From positions 1 through 64,000 of the IMG/VR virus record IMGVR_UViG_3300009703_000012: a stretch of DNA of 64,000 nt. One strand, given 5' to 3'. Position numbers and translations under genes: made by a program. Below, one piece after another: positions 25,194-51,067 of the stretch. The DNA is from a virus. Under the pieces are notes generated by a model, which was not told the origin of the DNA, did not search any database, and was given only the letters and a program-made list of their open reading frames with translations. Position 1 is the first letter of the stretch; every line of letters begins with the position of its first letter.

Positions 25194-25877
25194 TTATGTC
25201 CTTTGTATTGTACTTTGGATCAAACCAATTAATTTATTAAAAATAAGATTATTTCCCTCTTCACTTATTCCATTTACAGATTTATTGAATGATACACTAT
25301 ATTCTTTTTCGATTTCACAAATATCTTCATCTATAATGCCCGATTTAAAAGTAAACCAACCAGGAATATGATCATTTATAACGTGTATTGTTGGTATTTT
25401 TTTTGAATAAACATATTCATCAATTAAAGATAATGCTCCATGAAATCTATTTCTATTTACATCTCTATTAAAATGTAATTTCATGAAATCTTTTATAATT
25501 GATGCATCAATAGGTTCTGTAGGTACACTAAAATTTGTAACTATGTCTTTTCTGTTTTGTTTAAAAGCATCAACATAATCTAAAAAATGTTGCCGATTAT
25601 CCCAATCATCAACTCTATCATCATTCATATAAATAAAATCTCTAGTAAAATTTGGAAAATATATAAATTGAGGAGTTGAATGAAAGATTATTGCTATATC
25701 AATTTCACTGGTCTTTTTTAAATTGTAAAGAATCCTTTCTTCTGAACATTGTGCTATCATATAATTTAATGAAGAAGCATTGAAATGATCAAGAATCAAA
25801 TCATAGAATGCTTTAGGCTTTTCTATTTGAAAAGTATTTGATCCTATTATACTAGAACCATAAAATTCTATTTTCAT
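25194..25877 (-). CDS. Hypothetical protein at the end of the accessory block
   Basis: A 227-residue soluble protein. The start KIEFYGSSIIGSN followed by alternating strands and helices (IAIIFHSTPQ, IPTIHVINDHIPGW) suggests a Rossmann-like or SGNH-hydrolase-like alpha/beta fold, with GSS in the place of the usual GDS. I would not assign an activity. It is followed by a late promoter and head genes, so it marks the downstream edge of the accessory region. Confidence 0.55.
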   Translation of the reverse strand: MKIEFYGSSIIGSNTFQIEKPKAFYDLILDHFNASSLNYMIAQCSEERILYNLKKTSEIDIAIIFHSTPQFIYFPNFTRDFIYMNDDRVDDWDNRQHFLDYVDAFKQNRKDIVTNFSVPTEPIDASIIKDFMKLHFNRDVNRNRFHGALSLIDEYVYSKKIPTIHVINDHIPGWFTFKSGIIDEDICEIEKEYSVSFNKSVNGISEEGNNLIFNKLIGLIQSTIQRT

Positions 25878-25884: not shown

Positions 25885-26148
25885 TTAAGTCAAATATTCA
25901 TTCATAGCAAAGTTTAATTCTTGATACCAAATTGTCAGATCACCTGGTGCATTTCCAGACATCGTTGCTGTAAATTGTGTTGTTAAATCATTTAACGCTT
26001 TTAACATATTTGCTTCTTTTTCATTTTCTGACGGTTCAGCAGTTGCAATTAAATTAATCCACTCTTGACAGCCTCCTGTATATCCACCCTGCATTGTGTC
26101 TTCAAGTTTTTTCTTCAACTCATTAGATATTTCACTAATTTTAGCCAT
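25885..26148 (-). CDS. Small hypothetical protein
   Basis: An 87-residue soluble helical protein (ISNELKKKLEDTM, EKEANMLKALNDL) with a single Cys near 27. It overlaps the preceding gene by 1 nt (stop/start TAATG type) and is 7 nt from the next. Probably translated with its neighbours. It is unrecognised. Confidence 0.5.
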   Translation of the reverse strand: MAKISEISNELKKKLEDTMQGGYTGGCQEWINLIATAEPSENEKEANMLKALNDLTTQFTATMSGNAPGDLTIWYQELNFAMNEYLT

Positions 26149-26954
26149 TATATCTCCTTTGACAATTCATATTTTTCATTTATAATATGTTCAGCAATAT
26201 CATTTATTATATTAAAAACAAGTGATCGAAATTTAAATTCATAATCAAAACGAAAATGATAAAAATTTTCACCTGGTAATGGAGCAGTCCTTAAACGTGC
26301 AGGCTTCCAATATCCTGTATTAAAACTTAATGTAATTCTATTAATTATTTGATTTATATTAAAATTCTCATCATCATTTAATTTTCTTTTTTCCCAAACA
26401 CCATTAATTGCATTTTTTAAAAGAAATGTAGAATAATTTAGTCCATTTATATTGCAAGCAGTCCATGATATATACGCATTGAGAAAATCAGACTTAACAT
26501 AGTGTCCTTCACATGAACCAAAAGTTCTAATTCCATCAAATGTATTGAGAATAGTGACCAATGGAAGAATACCTAATTCTATTTCATTCTGATTATCATC
26601 AGGCACTCCTCCACCTATAGCACCTGTAGAAGGATCTTCTGTTGGTAAAATATTTAATTCATTAAATAATGATATATTATCAGCAGAACTTTCACCTCTC
26701 CAATCATAACCAATTTCAAATTGTTTAAGAAAATCTTGAAAAGTTCTTGCTAACAATTCATATTTTATATTTGCATGTCCAGCAATTAATAAATATTCAC
26801 CTTTTCTCTTTGCTCGTTCAATAGAATCTTGATCACTACCCCCAATTTTATCTACTAATGAAACAAATAATTTATTCAAAGAATCTATTTCAATTTTTGA
26901 ATGAGGATCATGTGCAATAATATAATTATTTTTCCATGTATTAATTGTAATCAT
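26148..26954 (-). CDS. Hypothetical protein downstream of the desaturase cluster
   Basis: About 268 residues. I start it at the ATG of MITINTWKNN; a GTG 48 nt upstream is in frame but would lie inside the tRNA-like gene. The protein is alpha/beta with an early KNNYIIAHDPHSKIEID, a SFGSCEGH-like segment (TFGSCEGHYVKSDF) and a long C-terminal helix. No family recognised. A carbohydrate- or peptide-binding role cannot be judged. The tRNA-like sequence begins 21 nt upstream. Confidence 0.55.
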   Translation of the reverse strand: MITINTWKNNYIIAHDPHSKIEIDSLNKLFVSLVDKIGGSDQDSIERAKRKGEYLLIAGHANIKYELLARTFQDFLKQFEIGYDWRGESSADNISLFNELNILPTEDPSTGAIGGGVPDDNQNEIELGILPLVTILNTFDGIRTFGSCEGHYVKSDFLNAYISWTACNINGLNYSTFLLKNAINGVWEKRKLNDDENFNINQIINRITLSFNTGYWKPARLRTAPLPGENFYHFRFDYEFKFRSLVFNIINDIAEHIINEKYELSKEI

Positions 26955-26974
26955 AACATACTTTTTTTTAATTT

Positions 26975-27047
26975 TGGTCGGGGTGGCGAGATTTACACTC
27001 ACAACTTCCCAACACCCTGTTGGCCGTTTTAATTAAACTACACCCCT
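26975..27047 (-). tRNA. tRNA-Pro-like gene (anticodon GGG), possibly degenerate
   Basis: A 73-nt sequence on the minus strand that folds as a tRNA. The acceptor stem has 6 pairs (GGGGTG with CACCCC) plus an A1-G72 mismatch, the discriminator is A73 and CCA is encoded. The T arm has five pairs with loop TGTAAAT. The D arm is GTTT/AAAC with a shortened 5-nt loop lacking GG. The anticodon arm reads CAGGGTG, so the anticodon is GGG. G72, A73, G35 and G36 are proline identity elements. Odd features are A33 instead of the invariant U33, the short D loop, G55 in the T loop and the 1-72 mismatch. It may be a decaying tRNA gene or a tRNA-like integration/recombination scar. Confidence 0.6.
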
Positions 27048-27098: not shown

Positions 27099-27863
27099 CT
27101 ATATTTTAATTAAATTGATCCATATACCATTTAAGTCAACTTGCCACCATTTATACGACTCTTTTCTTGTCGTATAATTAGATGGATCTTCATGATGATT
27201 CAAATGCCATCCTTCTCCAGCGGTTATCAATGCCACTAAATTTTTATTCTCTGGTTTTCCATTCTTATGAGTAAATGCATTAATAATACCCGAACCATGA
27301 AGTATTAAACATGTAGGAATACAAAAACCAAATATAAAAAACCAAGGACCCATGAATAACAATACAATCATAATAATAACTGTTAAAGAAAGATAATTAT
27401 CATAAAACCATTTAGCAATAGGATCTTTTGTTTCTTCTAACCAATCTTTTAAATCTTCTCTTGTAGGAGGATCTATTGTAAACACTCCCATTCCCCAAAA
27501 ACTTGTCCACACATTCCAAAATCCTTTATGTTTAGGACTATGTGGATCTAATTCCGTATCACTATATTTGTGGTGTAATTTATGTGTTCCGCTCCATATA
27601 AGAACTGGTCCTGGATTACCAAATAAAGAAAAAAAATTAAAATAATAATCATACCAAAGCGGTGCTTTAAAACTTTTATGAGTATAATACCTATGATACC
27701 CAGTAGTATATGCTGTACATCCTATCCACTGCCACCATATCAAACTTAATATCCACATCCACCATTCGCCATAAAGAATTGCGGGTATAATTGCTAAATG
27801 AGCAATTAAATTAATTAAGAAAAAATAGGGAGTTCGCTTAGATTTAATATAATAATTAATCAT
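27099..27863 (-). CDS. Membrane fatty-acid desaturase, copy 7 of the tandem array
   Basis: A 254-residue membrane desaturase of the acyl-CoA/acyl-lipid delta-9 type. Histidine boxes are HRYYTH (57-62), HKLHH (94-98) followed by SDTELDPHSP, and HLNHH (220-224), which together bind the diiron centre. Four or so hydrophobic segments surround them. It is the last gene of the array and the most divergent copy: box 3 is followed by EDPSNY rather than the ERYN pattern, and the common C-terminal NVFLIEKF tail is replaced by LNGIWINLIKI. It needs an external electron donor, which is not encoded nearby. Confidence 0.9.
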   Translation of the reverse strand: MINYYIKSKRTPYFFLINLIAHLAIIPAILYGEWWMWILSLIWWQWIGCTAYTTGYHRYYTHKSFKAPLWYDYYFNFFSLFGNPGPVLIWSGTHKLHHKYSDTELDPHSPKHKGFWNVWTSFWGMGVFTIDPPTREDLKDWLEETKDPIAKWFYDNYLSLTVIIMIVLLFMGPWFFIFGFCIPTCLILHGSGIINAFTHKNGKPENKNLVALITAGEGWHLNHHEDPSNYTTRKESYKWWQVDLNGIWINLIKI

Positions 27864-28654
27864 GCTTTAAAAAATCTTTCAATAAGAAACACATTTTTCA
27901 TATCTTGTTCATACCATCTATCTGACATTTTAAAATTATATGAAGAAGGATTATAATGATGATTGTTTTGTAATCCTCCAGAAGAAACAAGAATACAAGC
28001 AAGTATATTATTTTTTGAATTATCAGGTGTTTCAAAATTACGATATCCCCACAAATGACTCATCATATTAACAGCTATAGATCCAAACCAAAATGTTATT
28101 GCACTAGGAAGAGCAAATAAAAATACAAATATTCTCCAATCTATAGACACAGTTATTATGATTACGCATATTTGAATTAATAAATGATATCGATGTGCAA
28201 ATTTTATTGATTCATCTTTCAACAAATCTGCTACGAATCTAGGATCAAACTTTTCTATTTTTGAAAAATCCCAATATCCTCTCCAGATATGATACCATTT
28301 GCTGTGGTGGGGAGAGTGTACATCCTTTTCAGTATCAGAATGCTCATGATGATGTCTATGAACATATGACCAAGTAAGAGGACTACCAGCATAGCATAAA
28401 ATTGTACAAATTGAAAATAATTTTGGTACCCAAGGTTTCGCTTTAAATGAATTATGTGTCCAGTATCTATGGACTCCTATTTCGCCTCCAATATCTTTAA
28501 ACAAAATTATACCCACTAATGTTAAAAACAACCAATGCCATGACGAATATATTATTCCCAATACAGATATGATAGGAAAGGTATAAATCCACACATATTG
28601 TAATATACTAATTTGAAAATCTTTAACAAATAATTTATTAAGGTTATCTATCAT
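27860..28654 (-). CDS. Membrane fatty-acid desaturase, copy 6
   Basis: A 264-residue desaturase with boxes HRYWTH (62-67), HRHHH (99-103, followed by EHSDTEKDVHSP) and QNNHH (229-233). The third box has Gln in place of the first His, a change also seen in two other copies and in front-end desaturases. The C-terminal tail SDRWYEQDMKNVFLIERF is shared with the other copies. It ends in a 4-nt overlap with copy 7. Confidence 0.92.
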   Translation of the reverse strand: MIDNLNKLFVKDFQISILQYVWIYTFPIISVLGIIYSSWHWLFLTLVGIILFKDIGGEIGVHRYWTHNSFKAKPWVPKLFSICTILCYAGSPLTWSYVHRHHHEHSDTEKDVHSPHHSKWYHIWRGYWDFSKIEKFDPRFVADLLKDESIKFAHRYHLLIQICVIIITVSIDWRIFVFLFALPSAITFWFGSIAVNMMSHLWGYRNFETPDNSKNNILACILVSSGGLQNNHHYNPSSYNFKMSDRWYEQDMKNVFLIERFFKA

Positions 28655-29483
28655 GTTTTAAAAACTTTTCTATTAAAAACACATTGGGAAAATCTGTCTC
28701 ATACCATCTATTAGACATTTTATAATTATATCTTTCAGGATGTGCATGATGATTATTATGTAATGTTCCTAATCCTCCTGTTATTATATTTAACCATGGA
28801 TTATTTACCGATAGATCATCAACTGTAGTTTCATAATTTCTATAACAACCAAATAACATTACATGTCCTAAAAAATGTGCTAACATTCCAGACCAAAAAG
28901 TTATAACACAAGGTAATGCTATAAAAAATATTAACAAACGAATATCGATTATTGATAAAATTACAATGGGAGAAAGTGCTATTAACCAATAATATTCATG
29001 ATTGAATCTTGCTACTTTATTTTTAAATAATTTTTTACAAAATTTATTTTCACTTTTTCTAAAAATATTCCAATCTTTACGTTCTTCCTGTTGAAGTTCT
29101 CCTAAAGTTTGAGTTATAATTCTAAAAACATCTTTAACATTCTTAATGTTATGAGGAGAAATTGGATCTTTTTCAGTATCAGATGTAGCATGATGCCATC
29201 TATGACCTATAGCATATGCTATATTACTTCCTCCATACGAAAATGCATATCCAATCATCATAAGCCATTCTGCCCAAGGTTTTGCTTCAAAACTCCTATG
29301 ACAAAAATATCGATGATTTCCTATTTCTGTACCGATATGTCGTAATAATATAACACCAATAAAAGATAACCATAACCAATGTAAAGAAAAAGTTATTAAT
29401 CCATATACAGTTAATATATGAAATAACGTATGAATAATAGAAATCATAATAACTGCAAACCTATTTGCTGTAAATTTGAACAT
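28644..29483 (-). CDS. Membrane fatty-acid desaturase, copy 5
   Basis: A 279-residue desaturase. Boxes are HRYFCH (57-62), HRWHH (94-98, with SDTEKDPISP following) and HNNHH (242-246, with AHPERYN). Compared with the shorter copies it has an insertion of about 25 charged residues after box 2 (around ELQQEERKDWNIFRKSENKF), on the cytosolic side, that may shape substrate or partner binding. The start codon lies 1 nt after copy 4. Confidence 0.92.
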   Translation of the reverse strand: MFKFTANRFAVIMISIIHTLFHILTVYGLITFSLHWLWLSFIGVILLRHIGTEIGNHRYFCHRSFEAKPWAEWLMMIGYAFSYGGSNIAYAIGHRWHHATSDTEKDPISPHNIKNVKDVFRIITQTLGELQQEERKDWNIFRKSENKFCKKLFKNKVARFNHEYYWLIALSPIVILSIIDIRLLIFFIALPCVITFWSGMLAHFLGHVMLFGCYRNYETTVDDLSVNNPWLNIITGGLGTLHNNHHAHPERYNYKMSNRWYETDFPNVFLIEKFLKHDR

Positions 29484-29484
29484 G

Positions 29485-30345
29485 TTAAACCTTTAAAAAT
29501 TTTTCTATTAAAAATACATTCAAAAAATCTGTTTCATGCCATTTATCATTCATTTTAAAATTATAGGCTCTTGAATTATGATGGTGATTATTTTGTAGTC
29601 CCATTCCCCCAGTAAATATATTTAACCATAGAGTATTAACTGAACGTTCCTTGTTACCCCACTCATCAGTTTCGAAATTTTTATAACTTCCAATAGTAGA
29701 AATATGTCCAAAAAAATTTAGTAGAGCCAAAGACCAAAAATTAATTACACATGGTATTGCTATAAGAAAGATTAATAAACGAATATCAATTATTGGTAAA
29801 ATTATAATTGGAAGAGATACAATCAACCAATAATAATTATGAGTAAATCTCGCTGGTTTATTCTTCATTAATTCCATAAAACCCCTCTTTTCATGAAACC
29901 ATTCCATGTATCTTTTCATTCTCATTTTATCAATTTCATCGTTATATAATTTTTCATATGCGAATACTGCAGGAAAAACAACTCTAACAAAATCTTTAAA
30001 TTTTTTTATATAATGTGGAGATTGTATATCATGTTTACTATCAGAAAATCTATGATGATAACTGTGTCCAGGACACCATGCTAACATACTACCTCCATAA
30101 TTCCATACAAATAAAATAGACATAAGCCACTGTGCCCACGGATTTGCTTTAAAACTTTGATGAGTATAATACCTGTGAGCGCCTATTTCAGTTCCTATAT
30201 GTCGAATTAAAATGGTTCCTATTAATGTTAACCACAACCAATGTAAAGAAAAAGTTATTATTCCATATACTAATAAAACATGAAAAGATAAATGAATCAT
30301 CATCCCAATAATAATTGCATTTCGTGTCATCTCATATTTAAACAT
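29485..30345 (-). CDS. Membrane fatty-acid desaturase, copy 4
   Basis: A 286-residue desaturase, the longest copy. Boxes are HRYYTH (57-62), HSYHH (94-98, then RFSDSKHDIQSP) and QNNHH (251-255). It carries a cytosolic insertion of about 30 residues after box 2, rich in Met, Arg and Lys (DEIDKMRMKRYMEWFHEKR). I use the ATG just after the upstream stop; a GTG two codons earlier is the alternative. The variations in box 2 (HSYHH, SDSKHD, IQSP) set it apart from copies 2 and 3. Confidence 0.92.
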   Translation of the reverse strand: MFKYEMTRNAIIIGMMIHLSFHVLLVYGIITFSLHWLWLTLIGTILIRHIGTEIGAHRYYTHQSFKANPWAQWLMSILFVWNYGGSMLAWCPGHSYHHRFSDSKHDIQSPHYIKKFKDFVRVVFPAVFAYEKLYNDEIDKMRMKRYMEWFHEKRGFMELMKNKPARFTHNYYWLIVSLPIIILPIIDIRLLIFLIAIPCVINFWSLALLNFFGHISTIGSYKNFETDEWGNKERSVNTLWLNIFTGGMGLQNNHHHNSRAYNFKMNDKWHETDFLNVFLIEKFLKV

Positions 30346-30347
30346 TA

Positions 30348-31118
30348 TCACGCCTTTAAAAACTTTTCTATTAGAAAAACGTTCAAAAAATCTGTCTCAT
30401 ACCATCTATTAGACATTTTAAAATTATATCTTTCAGGATGTGCATGATGATTATTCTGCAGACCTTCTCCTAAAGTTAGTATATTCACCCATGTAGAATT
30501 TCGACTTTTATCGTTTGTATCATCAAAATTTCTATATCCATATAAATGCCCTATAGAATTTACCAGCCCCCCAGAATGAAGTGCAAATGCACTTGGAATA
30601 GCAAATAGAAAAACAGATATTCTCCAATCTATCAATGCAAATAAAATTAATGGTGTAGTTACTATAATTAAATAATTTCTATGTAAAAATTGTAAAAATT
30701 TATCTTCTATTAAATCTTGATACAATTTAACATCTAACACTTCAACTCGCCAGTTAGTAAAATAAACATCTATGAAACTCATGTGATGTGGTGAATGGGG
30801 ATCCAATTTAGTGTCTGATTTTTGATGATGTAGTCTATGAAAAGGAATCCAAGCATAGTGTGTTCCTCCATATGCAAAAAGTCCACAAATGGCCATTAAT
30901 TTTTTAGCCCAAGGTTTTGCTTTAAAACTTTTATGTGCAAAATATCGATGGGCGCCAATTTCTACACCAATATGTCTGAAAAAAATAATGCCCACTAAAG
31001 ACAACCACAGCCAATGCCATGATGAATATAACAATCCAACAACAGTTAATATATGAAATAAAATTTGAAATCCAAAATATGCCATCCAGGTATTATTATA
31101 TTTTGAAATGATTTTCAT
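30348..31118 (-). CDS. Membrane fatty-acid desaturase, copy 3
   Basis: A 256-residue desaturase with boxes HRYFAH (57-62), HRLHH (94-98, then QKSDTKLDPHSP) and QNNHH (221-225, then AHPERYN). It is very like copy 2 in the FQILFHI membrane start, the LQFLHRNYLIIVTTPLI segment and the VNILTLGEGL stretch, so these two are the most recent duplication. It overlaps copy 2 by 4 nt. Confidence 0.93.
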   Translation of the reverse strand: MKIISKYNNTWMAYFGFQILFHILTVVGLLYSSWHWLWLSLVGIIFFRHIGVEIGAHRYFAHKSFKAKPWAKKLMAICGLFAYGGTHYAWIPFHRLHHQKSDTKLDPHSPHHMSFIDVYFTNWRVEVLDVKLYQDLIEDKFLQFLHRNYLIIVTTPLILFALIDWRISVFLFAIPSAFALHSGGLVNSIGHLYGYRNFDDTNDKSRNSTWVNILTLGEGLQNNHHAHPERYNFKMSNRWYETDFLNVFLIEKFLKA

Positions 31119-31909
31119 TTTTTCTCCATTAATAATTTTTCGATTAAAAAAACATTTAAATCATCTCTTTCATACCATTTATTTGTCATTTTATAATTAT
31201 ATCTTTCAGGATATGCATGATGATTATTATGTAATCCTGATCCTAAAGTTAATATGTTCACCCATGTAGAATTTTGACTTTTATCAGTTGTTTCAAAATT
31301 TCTATATCCATATAAATGACCTATAGTATTTCCCAATCCCGCAGAATGAAATGTAATTACAACTGGAATAGCAAATAGAAAAACAGGTATTCTCCAATCT
31401 ATTAATGCTGTTATAATCAATGGTATAGTTACTATAATTAAATAATTTCTATGTAAAAATTGTAAAACGGGATCTTTAATTAAATCTGCAAAATATGATT
31501 TATCCACGGGTTCACGATAATACTGGTTCGCACTAGGAAAATACACATTTACAAAATTTAAAAAATGGGGAGAATGAGGATCATCAATTGTATCTGATTT
31601 TTGATGATGTAATCTATGAATTGGAATAAAAGAATATGGCGATCCTTGATATAAAAAAAGTCCACATATAATCATTAATTTTTGAGCCCAAGGTTTTGCT
31701 TCAAAACTTCTATGAGCATAATATCTATGGGCGCCTATTTCACCCCCTATATGTCGAAATAATATTACTCCAATAAGACTTAACCATAACCAATGCCAAG
31801 AACTATAGACAATTCCTAATGCCGCTACAATATGAAATAATATTTGAAATCCTAAATGAGTATGCCAAGTACTACTATATTTTAAAAAATTTTTCAATAA
31901 TCCAGCCAC
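31115..31909 (-). CDS. Membrane fatty-acid desaturase, copy 2
   Basis: A 264-residue desaturase. Boxes are HRYYAH (61-66), HRLHH (98-102, with QKSDTIDDPHSP) and HNNHH (227-231, with AYPERYNYK). It is a near twin of copy 3, but box 3 begins with His rather than Gln. Its 5' end overlaps the end of copy 1 by 35 nt; no later Met fits the membrane start, so I keep the upstream ATG. Confidence 0.92.
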   Translation of the reverse strand: MAGLLKNFLKYSSTWHTHLGFQILFHIVAALGIVYSSWHWLWLSLIGVILFRHIGGEIGAHRYYAHRSFEAKPWAQKLMIICGLFLYQGSPYSFIPIHRLHHQKSDTIDDPHSPHFLNFVNVYFPSANQYYREPVDKSYFADLIKDPVLQFLHRNYLIIVTIPLIITALIDWRIPVFLFAIPVVITFHSAGLGNTIGHLYGYRNFETTDKSQNSTWVNILTLGSGLHNNHHAYPERYNYKMTNKWYERDDLNVFLIEKLLMEKK

Positions 31910-32633
31910 AAGGATCCCTTTCGTTATCTGTTACTTTTTCATTATATCTTTCAGGATAAGCGTGATGATTATTATGTAAGCCCCCTCCCCATATTAAAAA
32001 ATTAATCCACGTATTATTTCTACTATTATCATCAGTATCAAAATTACGATATCCCCATTTATGAGAAATAGTATTTATTAATAAAGTTGATCCATGAAAG
32101 GTTATTACAGAAGGAATACAAACTAAAAATACAAGTAATCTCCAGTCTAACAAATATAATATTCCAAACATCAATATTATCATATAAAAATAATATTTGT
32201 GTATGTTTTTAACTAATGGATCTTTCAATAAATCCATATACTCTTTTGGATTAGGAGATATAGGATTCCACAAAGTCAACCAGCACTTCCACCATGGTAT
32301 TATATTTGGAGAATGGGGTTCTTCTGGCTTATCTGCATTCATATGATGATATCTATGCAATATAGCCCAAGTCATAGGTGAACCATTACAATTTATTAAT
32401 CCCATAATTTGCAATATAAAATTTCTTATGGGTCCAGTTTTAAAAGATCGGTGAGAAAGATATCTATGAGTTCCTATTTCTCCACCCAACTTACTCAATA
32501 AAAGTCCAATAAACAGTACAATAAACAAATAATATGATGATTCTGTTATAGCATAATAAATTCCTATTATCATTAGAACATGATTCATTAATATTAAAAA
32601 CCATACTTTATATTTGTACGATACCTTTGTCAT
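31875..32633 (-). CDS. Membrane fatty-acid desaturase, copy 1 (first of seven)
   Basis: A 252-residue desaturase, first in the transcribed order. Boxes are HRYLSH (56-61), HRYHH (93-97, with MNADKPEEPHSP) and HNNHH (220-224, with AYPERYN). The usual SDTxxD after box 2 is replaced by ADKPEE, which may alter the active-site lining. The end shows a shortened tail (DPCGWIIEKFFKI). It overlaps the upstream oxygenase gene by 26 nt. Confidence 0.92.
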   Translation of the reverse strand: MTKVSYKYKVWFLILMNHVLMIIGIYYAITESSYYLFIVLFIGLLLSKLGGEIGTHRYLSHRSFKTGPIRNFILQIMGLINCNGSPMTWAILHRYHHMNADKPEEPHSPNIIPWWKCWLTLWNPISPNPKEYMDLLKDPLVKNIHKYYFYMIILMFGILYLLDWRLLVFLVCIPSVITFHGSTLLINTISHKWGYRNFDTDDNSRNNTWINFLIWGGGLHNNHHAYPERYNEKVTDNERDPCGWIIEKFFKI

Positions 32634-33333
32634 GATAATATGTTACTCCTGTATGAGCCATTTGTATTCTTTTTTTATTCCAAGTAGCATGATCAATTCC
32701 TTTAATAGTATGATTACCAGCATCCATAAACATAATCATACTGTGTCTTTCTTTTTTTGTTTTATTCGTTATTCTATGCGGAGTAGATTTTAATTTATTA
32801 TCTGACCAAATCTGCATAAAATCACCTATATTCACAATCAAAAAATCATCACTAGGATGATTTATTGTTCTCCATTTATCATCATAAAATATTTCATATT
32901 CTTCTACAGGATCACAAACATGAACAAGTGTTAAAGTACCAAAATCACAATGTTCTCCTACTCTTATTGATCCTTTCTGATCTTTATAATATTTAACCAA
33001 TCTCAAAGCATTATCAGAATCAGCATGTTTCATTGCAATAGAATTTGGAGGAACATTTAAAAATTCTTCAATAACATATAAAATTTCACATCCCACTTTT
33101 AAAAATCTTTGTTTAATATTATCACAATTTTTTAATATAATTTTTCTATACCCCTCTTCAGTTTCTTCTAATTCGTTTAATTGTATTTTAAGTTTTTCTT
33201 TAAAAGAAAGTAAACCTTCTTTCATATCTATGAAGGGATGATTAATTACTAAAAATCCCGAATCAATAAAACTAGAAATAATATTTTTATTATTCCATTC
33301 AGAAGGGATTGTATAGTCTAAGGTTTTTATCAC
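32608..33333 (-). CDS. 2-oxoglutarate/Fe(II) oxygenase, isopenicillin-N-synthase-like
   Basis: A 241-residue jelly-roll oxygenase. The iron triad is visible: EHCD gives H128 and D130, and TPHRI gives H186. The co-substrate R-x-S motif is R196-H-S198. The HxD is followed by FGTLTLVH, the typical IPNS/plant 2OG-oxygenase pattern. It is shorter than usual (about 300), missing most of the N-terminal subdomain. It starts with GTG in a GTGA overlap with the AcpS stop. Placed between carrier-protein genes and desaturases, it may hydroxylate, desaturate or cyclise the acyl intermediate. Confidence 0.82.
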   Translation of the reverse strand: MIKTLDYTIPSEWNNKNIISSFIDSGFLVINHPFIDMKEGLLSFKEKLKIQLNELEETEEGYRKIILKNCDNIKQRFLKVGCEILYVIEEFLNVPPNSIAMKHADSDNALRLVKYYKDQKGSIRVGEHCDFGTLTLVHVCDPVEEYEIFYDDKWRTINHPSDDFLIVNIGDFMQIWSDNKLKSTPHRITNKTKKERHSMIMFMDAGNHTIKGIDHATWNKKRIQMAHTGVTYYHDKGIVQI

Positions 33334-33758
33334 AAAGGATTAACTCCTGTAATAACTATTGCGACCACATAATCTTTTGTATCAGATAAAGAAAGTCTAA
33401 TATCTTGTCGTTTCAAATTCCAATCTTTGGGTTCCATAACACAATGAACAACAGGAAATCTTGCTCCTCTAGCTTTTAAATGTGTATAACTAACATCGAG
33501 TCTCAAATATGGAGATGCAATTGCTTTTGAAAATGCTTCTTTAACACACCAACATTTTGTTAAATATTTTGCAGTTATGGGATTTGGTGCATTTTTCTTT
33601 TCTATATCTGTTAATATTTTATTAACAAATTTATCACCCCATTTATCATATATTTTTTGAATGGGTTCTATTGTTTGTAAATCTATACCCAAGCCATTTT
33701 CTATTGTCATCGACAAAATTCTATTACGAATATCGTGTTTATCTTTTCCCCAAATCAT
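33330..33758 (-). CDS. acpS: Holo-ACP synthase, AcpS-type phosphopantetheinyl transferase
   Basis: A 142-residue protein of AcpS size. GLGIDLQTIEPI carries the metal-binding Asp (D26), and KCWCVKEAFSKAI carries the Lys/Glu pair (K73, E74) that completes the Mg-CoA site. SLSDTKDYVVAIVI matches the C-terminal strand. The spacing from Asp to Glu (48) is that of bacterial AcpS. It should transfer 4'-phosphopantetheine from CoA to Ser41 of the ACP encoded three genes upstream. A phage bringing both ACP and its activating enzyme suggests the ACP is poorly served by the host enzyme. Confidence 0.9.
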   Translation of the reverse strand: MIWGKDKHDIRNRILSMTIENGLGIDLQTIEPIQKIYDKWGDKFVNKILTDIEKKNAPNPITAKYLTKCWCVKEAFSKAIASPYLRLDVSYTHLKARGARFPVVHCVMEPKDWNLKRQDIRLSLSDTKDYVVAIVITGVNPL

Positions 33759-34783
33759 ATTTTTTCTAATAATATAACATCAACCTGAAAACCTGGCCCA
33801 TAAGAAATCATAACTGTTTTGCCATCTTTATCAAAATCATGCTGTAAAGTTTTTATTACTGAAGTTGCAGACATATTTCCAAAATTTCGAAATAATTCAA
33901 AAGATGAATCCAAAGCACCTTCAGGTAAATTAAGCCCCTTTACAGTATTTTCTAAAACAATTTTTCCTCCTGGATGACATATCCAATTATTAATAGTATG
34001 ACCTTCAATAAATTCTTTAATTTTATCATTAAATGCCGCAGATGCTTTTGGTATTTCTTGCAATTTAGTTGATTCTACATGATATAATAATCCTTCACTT
34101 AATCCTTGAAGAGTAATATAATCTTCTGTATCTGGTAAAACATATGACACATGTTTATGTAATTTCCATCCTGGTGCATCATTATAATTATCTCCTGCAA
34201 TTAAAATAGCACTAATTCCATCACCAAATATTACAGATCCAAAAACAGTTGTTAATGTAGCATGTTCAGGACACAAATTCATTGAACATAAATCGTTAGT
34301 CATTGCTATAACTAACTTGTCTGGATTACCTTTTAAATATTCATTTGCTATTCCTAAAATATGAGTGCCTCCATTACATGCTAGACCAAACATGGGTATT
34401 TTAATCATTGATTCTGGAAAATTAAATTCTTTTAATATTGTATGGGGAATCGTAGGAATACCAACACCTGTCATAGTAGTTGATGTTAACATACAAACAT
34501 CTTGTGGATTAAATTCCAATTCCTTTACACATTCTAATGATAATTTTATAGCAACTTCATTAAATGTTTTATTTTTTTGAGTAAACGTTTGAGATTTTTC
34601 TCTCATCTCCTCTCGATTATAACAAGCATATCGAGTTTCAACACCCGTTAATGGAAGATATCTATCAAAAACTCTACCCGAATATCCTTTTTCTTCCCAC
34701 CATAATTTTAATTCTGCGGCAAAATCTTTATTATGATGTTCATTTTCAGGATGTCTAGTTGCTATTTGTAACACCTTGCTCAT
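33755..34783 (-). CDS. Type III polyketide synthase-like (chalcone/stilbene synthase family) condensing enzyme
   Basis: A 342-residue thiolase-fold enzyme. The catalytic triad is complete: Cys136 in MFGLACNGG, His270 in ICHPGGK and Asn303 in FGNMSA. The 33-residue His-Asn spacing and the PGF/GPG end (YGPGFQVDVILLE) match the chalcone synthase family rather than FabH. FGDGISAILI near 186 is the family's FGDGAAA segment. It would extend an acyl starter with malonyl units, giving alkylpyrone, resorcinol or beta-keto products, or carry out a single condensation. Known members accept fatty acyl-CoA, which fits the desaturases downstream. Both ends are coupled by ATGA overlaps. Confidence 0.85.
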   Translation of the reverse strand: MSKVLQIATRHPENEHHNKDFAAELKLWWEEKGYSGRVFDRYLPLTGVETRYACYNREEMREKSQTFTQKNKTFNEVAIKLSLECVKELEFNPQDVCMLTSTTMTGVGIPTIPHTILKEFNFPESMIKIPMFGLACNGGTHILGIANEYLKGNPDKLVIAMTNDLCSMNLCPEHATLTTVFGSVIFGDGISAILIAGDNYNDAPGWKLHKHVSYVLPDTEDYITLQGLSEGLLYHVESTKLQEIPKASAAFNDKIKEFIEGHTINNWICHPGGKIVLENTVKGLNLPEGALDSSFELFRNFGNMSATSVIKTLQHDFDKDGKTVMISYGPGFQVDVILLEKI

Positions 34784-35397
34784 TTTGCCTCCAATGTCAT
34801 TTCTCTTACTCTTCCACTATGATTTAACATAAAGTCTATAGCATCTATACATTCATCTGTACTCAACATTGTTCCAGTTGTTTGCTTAACAGGATCAACA
34901 TCATATAAACGACTTACTACAGTACTTATTCTTGTTGTTCTAGGTGTTTCTACCCAACCAAGTCTTAAATTAGAAACTTTACATCCATGTTTTTTTGCTA
35001 CTTTTTCATGACAGTCTAAATTCATTTTATCAAGAGAAATTTTTCCTACTGAATATCTACTATGACCAATAGGCCATCCATCAGTATCTTTTTCCTGTGC
35101 AATTGAACTTATAGACACAATATGTTTATCGGGTTTATCTGCCCAAACTGAAAAAGAATATAATAATGCATTCGTTTGAGTCCACCATCTCAGATCACTA
35201 TATGCATTATTGATAAAAATATCTGCTTCAGGATCAAACCAATCTTTAATGTCTTGAATATCATGTTGATTATATCTTCTACTGTGACCTTCAACTTCTA
35301 TTACATCTTTATATTTTTGAATATATTTTCCATCATAATATTCAAAAAGTGCTTTTCCTAAACCAGAACTCACACCTGTTATCATCATTTTTTTCAT
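34780..35397 (-). CDS. Short-chain dehydrogenase/reductase
   Basis: A 205-residue Rossmann oxidoreductase. The nucleotide-binding TGVSSGLG is at 7-14, the NNA motif at 63-65, the catalytic Ser in SISSIA near 97, and Tyr115-x3-Lys119 in YSVGK. It is about 40 residues shorter than typical SDRs, with a compact region after the glycine loop. In this setting it may reduce a beta-keto group formed by the condensing enzyme. It overlaps the condensing-enzyme gene by 4 nt. Confidence 0.88.
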   Translation of the reverse strand: MKKMMITGVSSGLGKALFEYYDGKYIQKYKDVIEVEGHSRRYNQHDIQDIKDWFDPEADIFINNAYSDLRWWTQTNALLYSFSVWADKPDKHIVSISSIAQEKDTDGWPIGHSRYSVGKISLDKMNLDCHEKVAKKHGCKVSNLRLGWVETPRTTRISTVVSRLYDVDPVKQTTGTMLSTDECIDAIDFMLNHSGRVREMTLEAK

Positions 35398-35398
35398 T

Positions 35399-36523
35399 TT
35401 ACCTCACTAGATCATTGTTTTTCCATTCTCTTTTGGGGAATTTTGGTTGAATATATTTTTTAAAAACCATATTCTGTTCAGCTATAGATTTAACACCAAG
35501 AGTTTCCTGTATGTCTTTTCTCATTTCTTCAAATTGTGTTTTATAAGGCTCTTGGGAATAATAATTATATCCATCAGGAATTAACTGAGCATAATCACAT
35601 GGTTCTCGATAAGCCACTCGTTCAATGGGGGATCCTTGTCTATTATGCAAAGTAATACAATTATCAAAAAGTAATATATCATTATTTCTTTCATACTTGT
35701 GATGATAAGTATATTCATCTACAAATAATTCTTTGTCTAAATCATCTAAAAATTTAGTTCTCTCTACTGTACCAGGAGAATAATGCAGACCTTTTATTCC
35801 TCCAGGGGTTGTAATAACCAGTGGAAGTTCAATCGGTTCAAACGTTTGATTCCAACGAAATGAATCATCTTGATCTTTATTTAATTCAGGAGCAGTTTCA
35901 TAATTTTGATATTTAAAAATAACAGTCATATCATCTAATTCTCTTTTAAAAGAATCTCTTTGCTTTTCGTACCAAGTTGCAGAACAAACAAATCCTGTTG
36001 AAGACCCCACCATTCCTTTTATGCCCATGAGTGCAACACCAGGAGTAAAGCAAAGCGAACCCGCTTCATTAGAATGCCAGCCCAATTCTCCTTCAGCAAA
36101 CATTCCCATACTTCTCCCATTCTCTTTCATACCAGTTATACGAATTAAATGAGAATCAGCAGGAACCTCTTCTTCTGTAAAATTATCCCCTGCCGCAATA
36201 TACCACGTTAAATTTTCTGCATGTCGGCGATCTTCTTCTTCTAAAAGATCACGTTTGAATAATGTATATAAATTAGATATTCCTAATTTTTTTTCATATT
36301 TTTTCTTAATACGATATCCATCTATAACATATGGGGCGCCCCATAAATACATCTTACGTTCAAATTCAGATGGTTGAATATCTACATTTCTAATAATTGT
36401 AACTAAATCTGTAAGATGTTCTTTTCCTAATTGCATCCAATCATTATCAGACATTTCTGCTAATGATACATCATCTATAAATACACCATAGTCACCAAGT
36501 CCTGATATTTTACTTTTTCTCAT
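35399..36523 (-). CDS. TauD/TfdA-like Fe(II)/2-oxoglutarate dioxygenase
   Basis: A 374-residue protein with the TauD-type fold pattern: an early LVTIIRNVDI strand, the metal motif GWHSNEAGS (His150), the distal His in FDNCITLHNRQG (His293) and the arginine region RVAYREP (around 302-306). The usual HxD is HSN, with Glu153 next to it, so either the Asp position has changed or Glu serves as ligand. It is about 90 residues longer than TauD. It starts within the end of the ACP gene (14-nt overlap), which points to direct coupling. A likely task is hydroxylation or desaturation of an ACP-bound substrate. Confidence 0.8.
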   Translation of the reverse strand: MRKSKISGLGDYGVFIDDVSLAEMSDNDWMQLGKEHLTDLVTIIRNVDIQPSEFERKMYLWGAPYVIDGYRIKKKYEKKLGISNLYTLFKRDLLEEEDRRHAENLTWYIAAGDNFTEEEVPADSHLIRITGMKENGRSMGMFAEGELGWHSNEAGSLCFTPGVALMGIKGMVGSSTGFVCSATWYEKQRDSFKRELDDMTVIFKYQNYETAPELNKDQDDSFRWNQTFEPIELPLVITTPGGIKGLHYSPGTVERTKFLDDLDKELFVDEYTYHHKYERNNDILLFDNCITLHNRQGSPIERVAYREPCDYAQLIPDGYNYYSQEPYKTQFEEMRKDIQETLGVKSIAEQNMVFKKYIQPKFPKREWKNNDLVR

Positions 36524-36893
36524 ATTGGCTCATTTCATAAACCCCTGTACCTGCTTCTTTATCTTTCTTTAGTTGTTCTAATAATCTGTTTCTAGCTTTT
36601 TCATCATCGCCTGCTTCTTTTTCAAGTTCTTTAATTTTAGCTCCTTGTTTTATTTTTACTTCAACTAAATCATAAAGATCCCTTACAGTAGTTGCTTTTT
36701 GAAATTCTTCAGCATCTAACATAATATCAAATTCATCTTCAATAAGAATCATAGTCTCTAAAATATGAATTGAATCAATATCAAGATCCTGTGCTATATT
36801 TTTTTCTGGTGTAATTTCTGGGAAGGAAAGGCCCATGCCTGCTTCATCAAAAGCGTCTTTACACTTTTGTTCAATTTCTTCTCTAGTAACCAT
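36510..36893 (-). CDS. Acyl carrier protein with a charged C-terminal extension
   Basis: About 127 residues from the ATG of MVTREEIEQ, chosen because GAGGAA stands 5 nt upstream and it avoids overlap with the previous gene. The carrier domain spans about 1-82: DLDIDSIHILETMILIEDEF has the attachment Ser41 in a DSI motif (DSL is usual), followed by the acidic recognition helix. Residues 83-127 are a Lys/Glu-rich helix not found in ordinary ACPs, possibly a docking tail. Activated by the AcpS encoded nearby, it should carry the growing or desaturating acyl chain. Confidence 0.9.
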   Translation of the reverse strand: MVTREEIEQKCKDAFDEAGMGLSFPEITPEKNIAQDLDIDSIHILETMILIEDEFDIMLDAEEFQKATTVRDLYDLVEVKIKQGAKIKELEKEAGDDEKARNRLLEQLKKDKEAGTGVYEMSQYEKK

Positions 36894-36909
36894 TATATTC
36901 CTCAATATA

Positions 36910-37893
36910 TTATTGTGCCATATCAAACTCTAGCATTTCACATGCGGCTTCAAAATTTTCATTTGTTTTATCGTCTGGACGACTTACATATGCTTCTCTA
37001 ACATATGCTAATAAATCTGTCAATTGAGATGTATTGAGATTTGAAATGGCAGTAGTGTTTTCGGTATCAATTTCATCAAATATTTTTGATGGTTCAGAAT
37101 ATCTCAAATGAACATTACTTAACTTGATAATATATATGAACTTAGAATAAGTAGAACTTATAAGTTTATTATGTAATGATATACAATTTGATGGCAACCA
37201 ACTTAAACTAGAAATTTGAGAATCATTTGGTCCAGCTATATTACCATCAGGAGTTTGAGCAGTTTCAGTTGTATACCAAGTTTTTCCTTTTTCATCAATT
37301 GCATTAATTAAAATTTTCATTGCGATTTCCCATCTCATATCACTATTAAACCATGATATATCTTTAGAATCCATATAGTCAAGAGGTAATACTGGTGCAT
37401 CATCTACAATAAATGGATCACCACTAACATCAGATCCTCTTTGATATGCAAAATATAAAACTCTATCAGTCCATTGATCTTCGGTTACTGCAGTTTTTAA
37501 ATAATATTCTTTATTTGTTTTTAATATATTTAAAATTTGATCATATTTATCGGATTCGCTTCCATTAGCAAGGTCAGTAATCTTGGAATCATTCTGAGAA
37601 GCCTCCCAATCAGGGCTACCTAAATCTTCATAAAATCCCAATTCTTCTCCTTTAGATCGTTCTTCATTCGTTGTTGATACATATGGTCTCTGACAAGCAA
37701 AGCCCGAAACTCGATCAAGCCATTCGTTTTCTGTAGTTCCATTTTCTAAATAATATTGTTTATTTAATTTTAATAAATCTAAAATTTGATCAAATTTATC
37801 AGGCTCACTTCCATTAGCAAGTGAAACAATTTCGTTATCACATTTTACAGTTTTCCATGTTGAATTTCCAGGTATATCATTGAATGCCATCAT
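36910..37893 (-). CDS. Hypothetical protein with two internal repeats
   Basis: A 327-residue soluble protein. Residues near 20-70 and 105-155 are an obvious duplication: LANGSEPDKFDQILDLLK and LANGSESDKYDQILNILK, followed by NK(Q/E)YYL and then (E/D)xxWxDRVxxFAxQR in both. The second half (DSKDISWFNSDMRWEIAMKILI and on) is helical and unlike the repeats. No family recognised. It lies directly before the ACP gene in the operon, so it may be a scaffold, docking or substrate protein for the pathway. Confidence 0.6.
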   Translation of the reverse strand: MMAFNDIPGNSTWKTVKCDNEIVSLANGSEPDKFDQILDLLKLNKQYYLENGTTENEWLDRVSGFACQRPYVSTTNEERSKGEELGFYEDLGSPDWEASQNDSKITDLANGSESDKYDQILNILKTNKEYYLKTAVTEDQWTDRVLYFAYQRGSDVSGDPFIVDDAPVLPLDYMDSKDISWFNSDMRWEIAMKILINAIDEKGKTWYTTETAQTPDGNIAGPNDSQISSLSWLPSNCISLHNKLISSTYSKFIYIIKLSNVHLRYSEPSKIFDEIDTENTTAISNLNTSQLTDLLAYVREAYVSRPDDKTNENFEAACEMLEFDMAQ

Positions 37894-38870: not shown

Positions 38871-40247
38871 CTAACAAGAAAGACTTTTTCCGTCTTCCGC
38901 AAATTTTGTTTCTTGTAAATGTTCTGTTCCAGATCCTTGACCAAAGGTATCAACTATACCTAAACGATCAAACATTGTTTTTGGTAACCCAGCTTTAGGT
39001 AATTCTCTTTCTATTTCGGGATCTGCATCTGGAAAATCAAAGAACTCTTCTCCAACTCTTACATTCACATTTTGAATTCTAGCAAGACCTTGTTGACTAT
39101 AATAAAATCTATGATCTTTCTTTTCTCCACATGAATTACACATATCACAAAATAAACTACACACAGGATAATTTATTAAATTTCTTCTCCATTTTTCTCT
39201 AAGCCAATCAATTTGTTCTTTTAATAACCATTTAATTTTTGCTTCATCTTCTGGCGTTTCGCCTTCTGCACACTTATTATCTAAAGATGTTACAACTCTA
39301 TCTGGTCCATATGTCGTTGCTATATGAAACATATCTTTTGCAAAACACATTACATTTGATCTATGAATAGTATATCTACATCTCCACCGTATTTGATCTT
39401 CACGGGATTTGTCTTTATTGTATTCCATAATATTACCAAAACATTTTAATACATCAAGAGTTGAATCTTTCCCAGAATAATAAACTCTATCTTGACTTCC
39501 AACTCCATCAAAACTAATATCAAAAGAAACTCTTTGTTTTATTTCAGGATGCTCTTCTAAATATGCGGTCACTTTTTTAAAAAAAGCAGGCTTACTTAAT
39601 AATATACCATTTGATGTTATATTAAAATGACAATTATGTTTTGATTTATAAGCATAATCCATTAAAAATCTACAATTCTCCCATTCCATCAAAGGTTCAC
39701 CACCAAAAATACAATAAAGAGTTTGTTCATCAGGTCTATCTGATTCCATAATATTATCGATAAGATTGGCTATTAAAGGAGGTTCGGGTAAATGTTTAGG
39801 TCTTCCTTCTAAATGCTGATAGCAATAATTACAATCTAAATTACATTGACTTGTCATATAAAATAAATGAATTGCACCACCATGTGCAACTCTTGTTTTT
39901 TCATTTTCTCCATGTGTAAAATGTCTATCATAAATTTCACTAACAGTTGCTTCTTCAGTTTTTATTTTTCCCTGTTTTAAATCTTCAATACGATGTCGAT
40001 GTCTATCTGTTGAAACAGATTCAAAATTTTCTTTTACTACTTCATTTAATTTTCTATTCGAAATTTCTCTAATTTTTGAATCTGGATTTTTTGCAAGACT
40101 CTGTTCCTGAATAGTTGCCAATTCATGAATCTTATGGGTTGTATATGGTTTGCATATACTCTCTCCATCATTCAATCCTCTTTCATAATCAATAATATCA
40201 TCCAATTTACTAAATTCTGGACAAATTTTATCTGAACGGGATCTCAT
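38871..40247 (-). CDS. Radical SAM protein 3, divergent C-terminus
   Basis: A 458-residue protein. The radical SAM cluster motif is CNLDCNYC (C135, C139, C142), followed by IFGGEPLMEW (SAM-binding GGE) and FDISFDG. About 125 residues precede the core, a possible peptide-recognition domain. The C-terminal part has CSLFCDMCNSC near 366-378, a compact cysteine set that could hold an auxiliary iron-sulfur cluster, and the final residue is Cys. It differs from the other two radical SAM proteins in both ends, so it probably does a different step. It is encoded by ATGA coupling with the small gene before it. Confidence 0.88.
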   Translation of the reverse strand: MRSRSDKICPEFSKLDDIIDYERGLNDGESICKPYTTHKIHELATIQEQSLAKNPDSKIREISNRKLNEVVKENFESVSTDRHRHRIEDLKQGKIKTEEATVSEIYDRHFTHGENEKTRVAHGGAIHLFYMTSQCNLDCNYCYQHLEGRPKHLPEPPLIANLIDNIMESDRPDEQTLYCIFGGEPLMEWENCRFLMDYAYKSKHNCHFNITSNGILLSKPAFFKKVTAYLEEHPEIKQRVSFDISFDGVGSQDRVYYSGKDSTLDVLKCFGNIMEYNKDKSREDQIRWRCRYTIHRSNVMCFAKDMFHIATTYGPDRVVTSLDNKCAEGETPEDEAKIKWLLKEQIDWLREKWRRNLINYPVCSLFCDMCNSCGEKKDHRFYYSQQGLARIQNVNVRVGEEFFDFPDADPEIERELPKAGLPKTMFDRLGIVDTFGQGSGTEHLQETKFAEDGKSLSC

Positions 40248-40507
40248 TTTTTTCTTTCCTTATATTTTTTAATTATGTAGGACATATTTCTCATTAATCC
40301 TGCAAAATCTAAATTATATTTAAATAATGGCTCATGACCTATTCCCTCTTCTCCGGATTCATATTCGAAACTTCTCTTGAGTAAATTTTTATCTCTAGCT
40401 TGAACTTTATCAGGAGTTTCTTCATCTTGCAATTGTTTTATTATTGCATTGATATCACCTTCACGGGCCGCCTTTTCTGAAATTTCTTTTCGTTCATCTT
40501 TATTCAT
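40244..40507 (-). CDS. Small hypothetical protein between radical SAM genes
   Basis: An 87-residue charged, helical protein (ERKEISEKAAREGDINAIIKQLQDEE) with a conserved-looking FKYNLDFAGLMRNMSYIIKKYKERKK end. It overlaps both neighbours by a few nt or less. The size would suit a RiPP-recognition-type or helper protein, but it does not show the RRE winged-helix pattern. Function unknown. Confidence 0.5.
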   Translation of the reverse strand: MNKDERKEISEKAAREGDINAIIKQLQDEETPDKVQARDKNLLKRSFEYESGEEGIGHEPLFKYNLDFAGLMRNMSYIIKKYKERKK

Positions 40508-41175
40508 TATGGCTCCGTAATAAGTGGTGCGGTTGGAAATGTATCATACACTTTTTTATATCTATAGAACTTTTCTAACCACTCTTTTCTCTGTTCATCT
40601 GTTGCTCTATCTACAAGATGCCAAACATTTCTATTTGCAGATATCCATTCTTCAGCACTTATATTTTTACCTGCGACAATTTCAGGATCATCACCATAAA
40701 ATTGTTCAAATATTATACAACCTTGTTCAACCGGACTAAGTAATTCCCAACTTAAAGTGCCTTCTTCTTCGTATGTAGATTTATTTAAGTCCCCCGTTAA
40801 TTCTTTAGTATCTTTAAAATCTATTACATTATTATGTAAATTCTTTGGAAGACTTGACATATAATCATATCTCAAATCTTGTGAATATAGAATTTTATCT
40901 ATTACATTTCTAAACATTTTTCTATTTAATTGTTTTTTAGATACTATAATTACATATTCATTTTTTCTTATTGCTCCACCCTCTATAGTTCTATATAAAA
41001 CTTCATTCATCACATCAACATTAATTTTTTGATCATAATCTAAAACAACCATTGTAGTATCTTTATGTTGATATACTGTTAAATCTTTTTTATCTAATAA
41101 TTGACCAGGAATATATTTTGGTGGTCCATCTCCTTGGTTAACTCTTGGATCTATTACAGGTTTATCAAATATCAT
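40507..41175 (-). CDS. Hypothetical protein between radical SAM genes
   Basis: A 222-residue soluble protein. Its first half is alpha/beta (DTTMVVLDYDQKINVDVMNEVLYRTI, NEYVIIVSKKQLNRKMF). The second has a helical segment with DPEIVAGKNISAEEWISANRNVWHLV. It is translationally coupled to the second radical SAM gene (4-nt overlap) and to the next small gene. No recognised family. It may be a partner or substrate-handling protein for the adjacent enzymes. Confidence 0.5.
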   Translation of the reverse strand: MIFDKPVIDPRVNQGDGPPKYIPGQLLDKKDLTVYQHKDTTMVVLDYDQKINVDVMNEVLYRTIEGGAIRKNEYVIIVSKKQLNRKMFRNVIDKILYSQDLRYDYMSSLPKNLHNNVIDFKDTKELTGDLNKSTYEEEGTLSWELLSPVEQGCIIFEQFYGDDPEIVAGKNISAEEWISANRNVWHLVDRATDEQRKEWLEKFYRYKKVYDTFPTAPLITEP

Positions 41176-42398
41176 GCTGGTAATGATTCCACAAATGATT
41201 GATGTTCACTATGTTTCATCTGTGAAACTTCTAGCATAGAAAATAAATCTTTCTTTTCCTCTATTTCAAAAGGAGTATAAAAGTCTCCTCGACCCTTAAA
41301 TAATTTTCCAATATAATCTTGAAATGTTGGAAAATCTTTACACTCTTCAACAATTCTTATTGCTTCATCATAGTACATATGAAATAATTCACAAATAGAA
41401 TCTACAGGTGTATTTCCATTTCTTATCTGCGAATATGTACAACCTGCATTACATACTTTATATAGATCACACCCCTTACATTTATTATATGTTTTAGGAT
41501 TAAAAATATGTTGAAAATATGAAAAATTATATTCATCTCCTTTCATAGGTAAAACTTTTTTAGATCCAAATCTAGCACATGGATAAAATTCTCCTTCTAC
41601 TGACATAACTGAACCGCTCACTCCTGCAAAACATCCAAATGGTCTCTTGTTTTTAGTAATACCCAATAACATATCTTGTAATGGTAAATTAAACATTCCA
41701 TTAACTGCTAAAATTCCTTTAGAAAGATATTCTATTTGTTTATCTGCTAATCTTCTAACCTCTCTTCTAAAATGTTGTAAATCATCAATAGACCAAATAT
41801 CATCTCTTACAATAGAAAAATCTGGACAAGGAATTCCAAAATCAACTAAAAATTCAAAATTTTCTGTCATTGCATCAACATTAGCAGGAAAAATCATCAC
41901 TTTACATGTCTTACTATATTTTGTCAGTCTTCTAATCAAATGCTGTTTTTCATTATACATTTCAAACACACTTGAATATCCTTTATTTTCTCCCATATTT
42001 TTAATTACAGGTCTAGACTCATTTGAAGATATTCCATCAAAACTCCAACTTATTCCTACTCGATTTTCTTCTAACCAATCAGCAATCTCATCATTTATTA
42101 ATGTCATATTTGAAATAATTGATAATGCATGAAGTCTATCAGAATGTTCGCCTCCTCTTAATTTTTTTGTAGCGTGTTTAATTAATGGCATATTTAAAAG
42201 AGGTTCACCACCAAAAAATGTTAAATGAAATCTTCCTCTAGCATCAGCCTTTGATCTATCTACTAACTTTATAAATTCAGGCCATGCTTTATCAAACACT
42301 TCAGGTGTCATAAATTTGTCTTGATTTGCAACATAACAATATGGACAACCAAGATTACATTTTTCTGTTACTGACACTTCTAAATGATATTCAGGCAT
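41172..42398 (-). CDS. Radical SAM/SPASM protein 2, peptide-maturase-like
   Basis: A 408-residue protein. The cluster motif CNLGCPYC (C14, C18, C21) sits at the very N-terminus, followed by LTFFGGEPLLNMP. The SPASM-like region has C256, then C274 in EFYPCARFG, CKGC (C307, C310), VCNAGC (C316, C320) and C336, the set that binds auxiliary 4Fe-4S clusters in anaerobic sulfatase maturases and RiPP-modifying enzymes such as PqqE or sactisynthases. There is no obvious N-terminal recognition domain. Together with the Cys-rich heptad protein encoded two genes upstream, it is a candidate thioether-forming or epimerising maturase. Confidence 0.92.
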   Translation of the reverse strand: MPEYHLEVSVTEKCNLGCPYCYVANQDKFMTPEVFDKAWPEFIKLVDRSKADARGRFHLTFFGGEPLLNMPLIKHATKKLRGGEHSDRLHALSIISNMTLINDEIADWLEENRVGISWSFDGISSNESRPVIKNMGENKGYSSVFEMYNEKQHLIRRLTKYSKTCKVMIFPANVDAMTENFEFLVDFGIPCPDFSIVRDDIWSIDDLQHFRREVRRLADKQIEYLSKGILAVNGMFNLPLQDMLLGITKNKRPFGCFAGVSGSVMSVEGEFYPCARFGSKKVLPMKGDEYNFSYFQHIFNPKTYNKCKGCDLYKVCNAGCTYSQIRNGNTPVDSICELFHMYYDEAIRIVEECKDFPTFQDYIGKLFKGRGDFYTPFEIEEKKDLFSMLEVSQMKHSEHQSFVESLPA

Positions 42399-43889: not shown

Positions 43890-43898
43890 ATTATTTCT

Positions 43899-50742: not shown

Positions 50743-50745
50743 TAA

Positions 50746-51066: not shown

Positions 51067-51067
51067 A

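Follow-up and report, generated by a model that had tools for sequence, protein, structure and literature searches.

The stretch examined here, referred to as the window, comprises bases 1–64,000 of IMG/VR virus record IMGVR_UViG_3300009703_000012, a linear record of 76,873 bases. At 27099–36926 it carries a run of 13 open reading frames (ORFs), all on the minus strand, for an acyl carrier protein (ACP), a TauD-like protein, a short-chain dehydrogenase/reductase (SDR), a type III polyketide synthase (PKS), an AcpS, an isopenicillin N synthase (IPNS)-like 2-oxoglutarate (2OG) oxygenase and seven SCD1-type desaturases. Neighbouring ORFs overlap by 4–35 bp or are separated by 1 bp, forming one translationally coupled run, and all frames are intact with no stops. 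A first-pass annotation had listed these ACP, AcpS, PKS, SDR, oxygenase and desaturase ORFs, and all are present. It had also extended the acyl set to position 37893, which holds through 36926, but the ORF at 36910–37893 matches no recognised family and is not clearly part of the set.

The acyl genes sit on a real phage, as gp23, portal, sheath and terminase genes are found on the same contig, together with tube and gp21 genes (sheath, tube, portal and gp21 were assigned by reading and T4 gene order). The contig is that of a T4-like phage, with approximately 73% capsid/core DNA identity to T4-like phages and best matches to Methylophilales phage Melnitz and Pelagibacter phages Mosig and HTVC008M. 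These three phages have genomes of 141–147 kb; thus the record is a fragment and gene absences are provisional. Matches to the late promoter TATAAATA number 11 against 12 expected, which is not above chance, and the minus strand has none between 27 and 38 kb.

Pfam matches were counted against family cut-offs, and NCBIfam, PHROG and motif reading were used besides. PF00550, PF01648, PF00195/PF02797, PF03171 and PF02668 are all matched above cut-off. The ORFs are as follows (L008, L009 and L021 are related contigs):

36510..36926, minus strand: ACP; PF00550 31.5 bits; 66–69% identical to the L008 and L009 copies
35399..36523, minus strand: TauD/TfdA-like dioxygenase homologue; PF02668 42.7 bits; phrog_24590 2e-63; HSN-E at the HxD position
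34780..35397, minus strand: SDR, putative ketoreductase; TGVSSGLG and YSVGK; 67% identical to relatives; weak PF00106
33755..34783, minus strand: type III PKS, condensing enzyme; PF02797/PF00195; Cys136-His270-Asn303; 72% identical orthologues
33330..33758, minus strand: AcpS-type 4'-phosphopantetheinyl transferase; PF01648 43.3 bits; conserved D, E, K
32608..33333, minus strand: 2OG-Fe(II) oxygenase, IPNS-like; PF03171 62.2 bits; H128xD130...H186...R196xS
31875..32633, minus strand: membrane desaturase, type B; PF00487; His boxes
31115..31909, minus strand: membrane desaturase, type C copy; PF00487; His boxes; model matches SCD1
30348..31118, minus strand: membrane desaturase, type C, nearest in the tree to the relatives' single type C; PF00487; His boxes, third QNNHH
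29485..30351, minus strand: membrane desaturase, divergent type-C-like copy; PF00487; His boxes, third QNNHH
28644..29483, minus strand: membrane desaturase, divergent type-C-like copy, HFLGH for NxxxH; NCBIfam DesA 57.6 bits (below cut-off); His boxes
27860..28654, minus strand: membrane desaturase, divergent type C copy; PF00487; third box QNNHH
27099..27863, minus strand: membrane desaturase, type A; PF00487 36.4 bits; His boxes; type A orthologues in L008, L009 and L021

The active-site motifs had been described as complete throughout, which stands for the PKS, AcpS, ACP, IPNS-like oxygenase and desaturases but not for the TauD-like protein. The ACP displays DSI at its phosphopantetheine attachment site, in agreement with the D-S-L/I serine site, and carries a Lys/Glu-rich C-terminal extension not found in the relatives' copies; its start is more likely the ATG at 36893 than the TTG. 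The ACPS domain of AcpS contains all of the catalytic Asp, Glu and Lys residues. The type III PKS assignment is upheld by both chalcone/stilbene synthase domains (PF00195 33.0 bits and PF02797 41.9 bits, each with a cut-off of 27) and by a full catalytic triad; C136, H270 and N303 align with those of Pks11, an alpha-pyrone type III PKS and the nearest solved relative, and are invariant among orthologues. Similarity to DpgA is low (NCBIfam 77.5 bits against a cut-off of 425). An AlphaFold model of the PKS, built from five near-identical sequences, gave pLDDT 40 and pTM 0.45 and was not used. The proposed SDR shows the TGxxSGxG and YxxxK motifs, but its PF00106 match is below cut-off (E = 0.0018), and a profile search of solved structures gave no match.

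Two Fe(II)/2OG oxygenases had been counted. The IPNS-like protein has both the HxD...H and RxS motifs, but the TauD-like protein shows H150-S-N-E (WHSNE) where HxD/E is expected, with a distal H293, and so lacks the HxD/E...H iron triad. WHSNE is invariant: every relative has it, as does Prochlorococcus phage P-HM2.

Seven desaturase genes are present as annotated, and HX4H, HXXHH and [HQ]XXHH boxes are found in every one; the third box carries Q in three of the seven, and one has HFLGH for NxxxH. Six pass PF00487, the seventh (28644–29483) matching only NCBIfam DesA, under its cut-off. All resemble lipid/coenzyme A (CoA) desaturases of the SCD/DesA family. The model of the 31118–31909 desaturase (pLDDT 80.6), the one of the seven that was modelled, has SCD1 entries as its only matches at E ≤ 0.001. 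The number seven does not represent seven types, as relatives have only three; the window shows one type A, one type B and several type-C-like copies, the genes at 28647 and 29488 having low-support, uncertain placement in a small tree.

Related contigs, selection and exchange

Scans of viral contigs with the PKS, AcpS and SDR recovered L007, L008, L010, L009 and L017. These five related IMG/VR contigs carry the cassette, with the PKS 72% identical, and represent two further lineages. L007, L008 and L010 are three records of one 21-kb sequence, identical to within one base, and L017 begins within the PKS gene. The ACP, SDR, PKS, AcpS, TauD-like protein and three desaturase types recur in the relatives. 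L008 and L009 share the order ACP-SDR-PKS-AcpS-desaturase, and each has three desaturases (A, B and C) and a Rieske oxygenase; in the window, the ACP and SDR genes are separated by the TauD-like gene, and AcpS is followed by the 2OG gene. L021, a contig end, carries two desaturases, one C-type and one A-type.

The search for the same gene set in viral and bacterial genomes, proposed in the first-pass annotation, thus gave five viral contigs but no close bacterial PKS relative. In INPHARED the SDR, AcpS and ACP have no match, and the sole PKS match is to Streptomyces phage ZL12 (22%). When genome contigs were scanned with the PKS, the one match was to Cyclobacterium at 19%, which was dismissed as irrelevant, and plasmid matches are at most 28% identical. 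The profile patterns are virus-biased, so the missing bacterial relative is weak evidence.

The genes are under purifying selection. Ratios of nonsynonymous to synonymous substitution (dN/dS; pairwise NG86 over cassette genes) are 0.009–0.39. Synonymous divergence in pairs with the window is high (0.6–1.5), so the L008–L009 values, 0.009–0.32, are the better guide. With no stops and this selection against orthologues, the genes are not inactivated remnants, one of the two outcomes that the first-pass annotation had named as refuting its proposal.

Nearby, at 38871–44492, are three radical S-adenosylmethionine (SAM) genes and a Cys-rich tandem-repeat ORF (CNCNFCP repeats), which resemble a peptide-modification set and are shared with L008. 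Backbone, cassette and radical-SAM genes differ in their relationships, as seen with G002 and G003, two records with a type III PKS. Backbone identity between the window and G003 is 97% for gp23, 98% for gp21 and 96% for UvsW, and between G002 and G003 it is 90%, 93% and 83% (UvsW over 119 residues only). Cassette identity is 52–77% for window–G003 versus 85–99.5% for G002–G003, and the TauD-like gene follows the pattern of the rest. Radical-SAM genes are 62–70% identical for window–G002 and 28–60% for window–G003. Since backbone and cassette give opposite phage relationships, the simplest reading of these identities, drawn from three lineages, is that the acyl cassette has been exchanged as one piece, independently of the backbone and of the radical-SAM block. 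The first-pass suggestion of a coherent gene set is borne out as one selected, co-transferred acyl cassette.

Analogous modules and published systems

Forty-nine virus records were searched that had been chosen for desaturases, so that shared desaturases are due to selection. A type III PKS is found in six (G000–G005) and a beta-ketoacyl-ACP synthase (KAS) in seven others (G009, G011, G014, G034, G038, G044 and G046), never both on the same record; AcpS occurs in 13 and ACP in 17. KAS, ACP, AcpS and desaturases are clustered in G014, G044 and G046 and all are also on G034, whereas G022, G030 and G036 show a desaturase-ACP-AcpS grouping. Some modules add FabZ, SDR or Rieske genes, and several an AsnB-like gene. 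G044 (364 kb, terminase on the contig) has desaturase, AcpS, Rieske, AsnB-like, FabZ, ACP and KAS genes together, and in G022 (355 kb, terminase) a desaturase-ACP-desaturase-AcpS set adjoins a fibre-like gene. G034 (L064/L105, L109, L110), in which no terminase match was found, carries approximately 11 desaturase candidates with KAS, ACP, AcpS, Rieske, rubredoxin and sugar-nucleotide genes. Thus sets of condensing enzyme, ACP, AcpS and desaturases recur in other, unrelated viruses, including phages of 355–365 kb. The KAS modules are like the window cassette in this composition, with Rieske genes in some, but have KAS in place of the type III PKS, and several of them also contain FabZ and an AsnB-like gene.

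A scan for the AcpS catalytic motif, not conditioned on desaturases although its query alignment was built from desaturase-linked AcpS genes, gave 20 viral contigs, 12 of which have an ACP as well as a desaturase no further than 8 kb away. Roughly half of these 12 are records already used for the query. Outside the query, five contigs have both (L126, L127, L128, L131 and L139), one has a desaturase only and eight have neither; these are not all independent, as the record of L131 and G044 have an identical KAS and the L126/L127 layout matches L125. An AcpS adjoining desaturases offers a handle for finding further such cassettes. Desaturase matches in 'Acinetobacter phage MD-2021a' were rejected because the neighbours on L100 (CAKLQH020000002.1), trp, btuB and baeRS, look chromosomal.

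In other viruses, AcpS/desaturase modules are accompanied by a conserved neighbouring protein, about 180 aa long; the one member tested has no Pfam match. Its positions are:

L102:4612-5151, L103:13564-14106, L104:5667-6209, L106:12058-12609, L107:9682-10221, L108:8069-8611: conserved protein of about 180 aa

Bacterial polyyne clusters, with which the first-pass annotation compared the cassette, have seven common genes including an acyl-AMP ligase, a thioesterase and a rubredoxin, and polyyne/alkyne clusters consist of jamABC with two desaturases, thioesterase and rubredoxin (PMC8406139). At the level of gene families, the cassette shares with such clusters the pairing of an ACP with three or more membrane desaturases, the phage relatives having exactly three types. 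The comparison is not supported, as the defining acyl-AMP ligase and rubredoxin are found neither on the contig nor on its relatives, all of them fragments, and the phage cassette differs also in its type III PKS, SDR, AcpS and oxygenases and in being virus-carried. It is not classed here as a polyyne cluster; it may work on similar chemistry. With bacterial type III PKS pathways (DpgA, Pks11, alkylpyrone and resorcinol synthases) the phage PKS shares family and catalytic triad, but its similarity is low and it is adjoined by a dedicated ACP and AcpS.

A full pathway of this kind had been described as unfamiliar from any phage. A partial sample of the open-access literature gave no report of a type III PKS/ACP/AcpS/desaturase cassette in phages, but partial precedents exist. 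Freshwater pelagimyophages carry fabF, a stearoyl-CoA desaturase and a 2OG oxygenase (PMC7029224), the closest published viral precedent located, and Streptomyces phage ZL12 has an annotated type III PKS. These share a virus-borne condensing enzyme and/or desaturase with the window, whose genes, in contrast, form an exchangeable multi-gene cassette that includes an ACP, an AcpS and a type III PKS of its own.

Proposed pathway and alternatives

We think it reasonably likely that phages exchange this cassette as a pathway and that it yields an acyl or short-polyketide product, unsaturated and oxidised, made on a phage-encoded carrier. What each enzyme does and when, which substrate the carrier holds and what product results are all inferred from the encoded families. 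The phage AcpS would prime the phage ACP, and an acyl chain, probably from host fatty acid synthesis, would be loaded. The type III PKS would condense this chain with a malonyl unit and the SDR would then reduce the keto group. The SCD1-like membrane desaturases could add several unsaturations, and the 2OG oxygenase, with the Rieske oxygenase in relatives, could hydroxylate the product. As to purpose, we guess at a specialised lipid that acts inside infected cells or is released by them.

Several points weigh against this reading. No PF00501 match (fatty acyl-AMP ligase, JamA) and no PF00301 match (rubredoxin) is found in G000–G005, contigs that are fragments, and no plant-type ferredoxin is found on the window contig, so that acyl loading and electron supply are unexplained. 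The first-pass annotation was right that these genes are not seen, but its conclusion that the host supplies the functions is indistinguishable, on a fragment, from encoding elsewhere in the phage. No dehydratase (FabZ) is seen in the window cassette, unlike several KAS-type modules. Type III PKSs usually use CoA starters, so the PKS–ACP link is drawn from gene order, and the PKS model, at pLDDT 40, gives no pocket evidence. The TauD-like protein, finally, may be something other than a canonical oxygenase.

The genes could instead be a loose auxiliary set remodelling host membrane lipids. The desaturases would then adjust the acyl chains of phospholipids, to the benefit of fluidity or of phage production, while the ACP and AcpS would only boost host fatty acid synthesis. 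Some phages, among them Pelagibacter phage Mosig, do carry a lone desaturase, those of Lake Baikal Nitrospirota viruses were read as lipid-modulating (PMC7678222), and the window desaturases match lipid/CoA enzymes. However, a dedicated ACP and AcpS, a type III PKS and oxygenases would be superfluous for remodelling, three or more distinct desaturases seem too many for fluidity, and the genes of the set have been inherited and exchanged together; we regard this explanation as rather unlikely.

Decoration of the cell envelope or virion (lipopolysaccharide, tail fibres) by the acyl product is suggested by the position of the island between fibre genes and gp21, a host-recognition-like region. 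The giant repeat ORFs at 46012–56107 adjoin it, similar modules in G022, G030 and G036 lie beside fibre-like structural genes, and lipopolysaccharide genes occur in pelagimyophage host-recognition clusters (PMC7029224). Such regions are general insertion sites, which makes position weak evidence, and no acyltransferase or glycosyltransferase is identified within the island, so that we consider decoration improbable. It is very improbable that the acyl and radical-SAM/Cys-repeat genes make one lipidated peptide: the two sets are adjacent in the window, L007, L008 and L010, but their exchange patterns differ, and L009 keeps the whole acyl core with no Cys-repeat ORF found, although L009 starts at a contig end and the ORF could be cut off.

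Single lipid genes in phages are already known. A co-transferred block with its own carrier, activator, condensing enzyme and several desaturases suggests, under the pathway proposed here, that viruses can specify a dedicated lipid-like product, and the cassette is compact enough for experimental testing. More tentatively, and with some doubt, diverse environmental viruses, from T4-like to 365-kb, may carry self-contained mobile acyl/polyketide clusters specifying virus-encoded small molecules or lipids.

Neighbouring genes

The 46012–56107 region contains two giant, fibre-like Gly-Ser-rich (GSAGSAG) repeat ORFs of 1576 and 1679 aa. The proteins at 26148–27002, beside the desaturases, and L008:3977-4798, beside the radical-SAM genes, are related and have a common CEGH motif. 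The ORF at 25194–25877, taken by eye as SGNH-like, was dropped for want of a convincing family match. By sequence reading, 7862–9124 is DNA cytosine methyltransferase-like, 9082–9924 resembles an asparagine-synthase-like ATP-pyrophosphatase and 10032–10580 is peptide deformylase-like.

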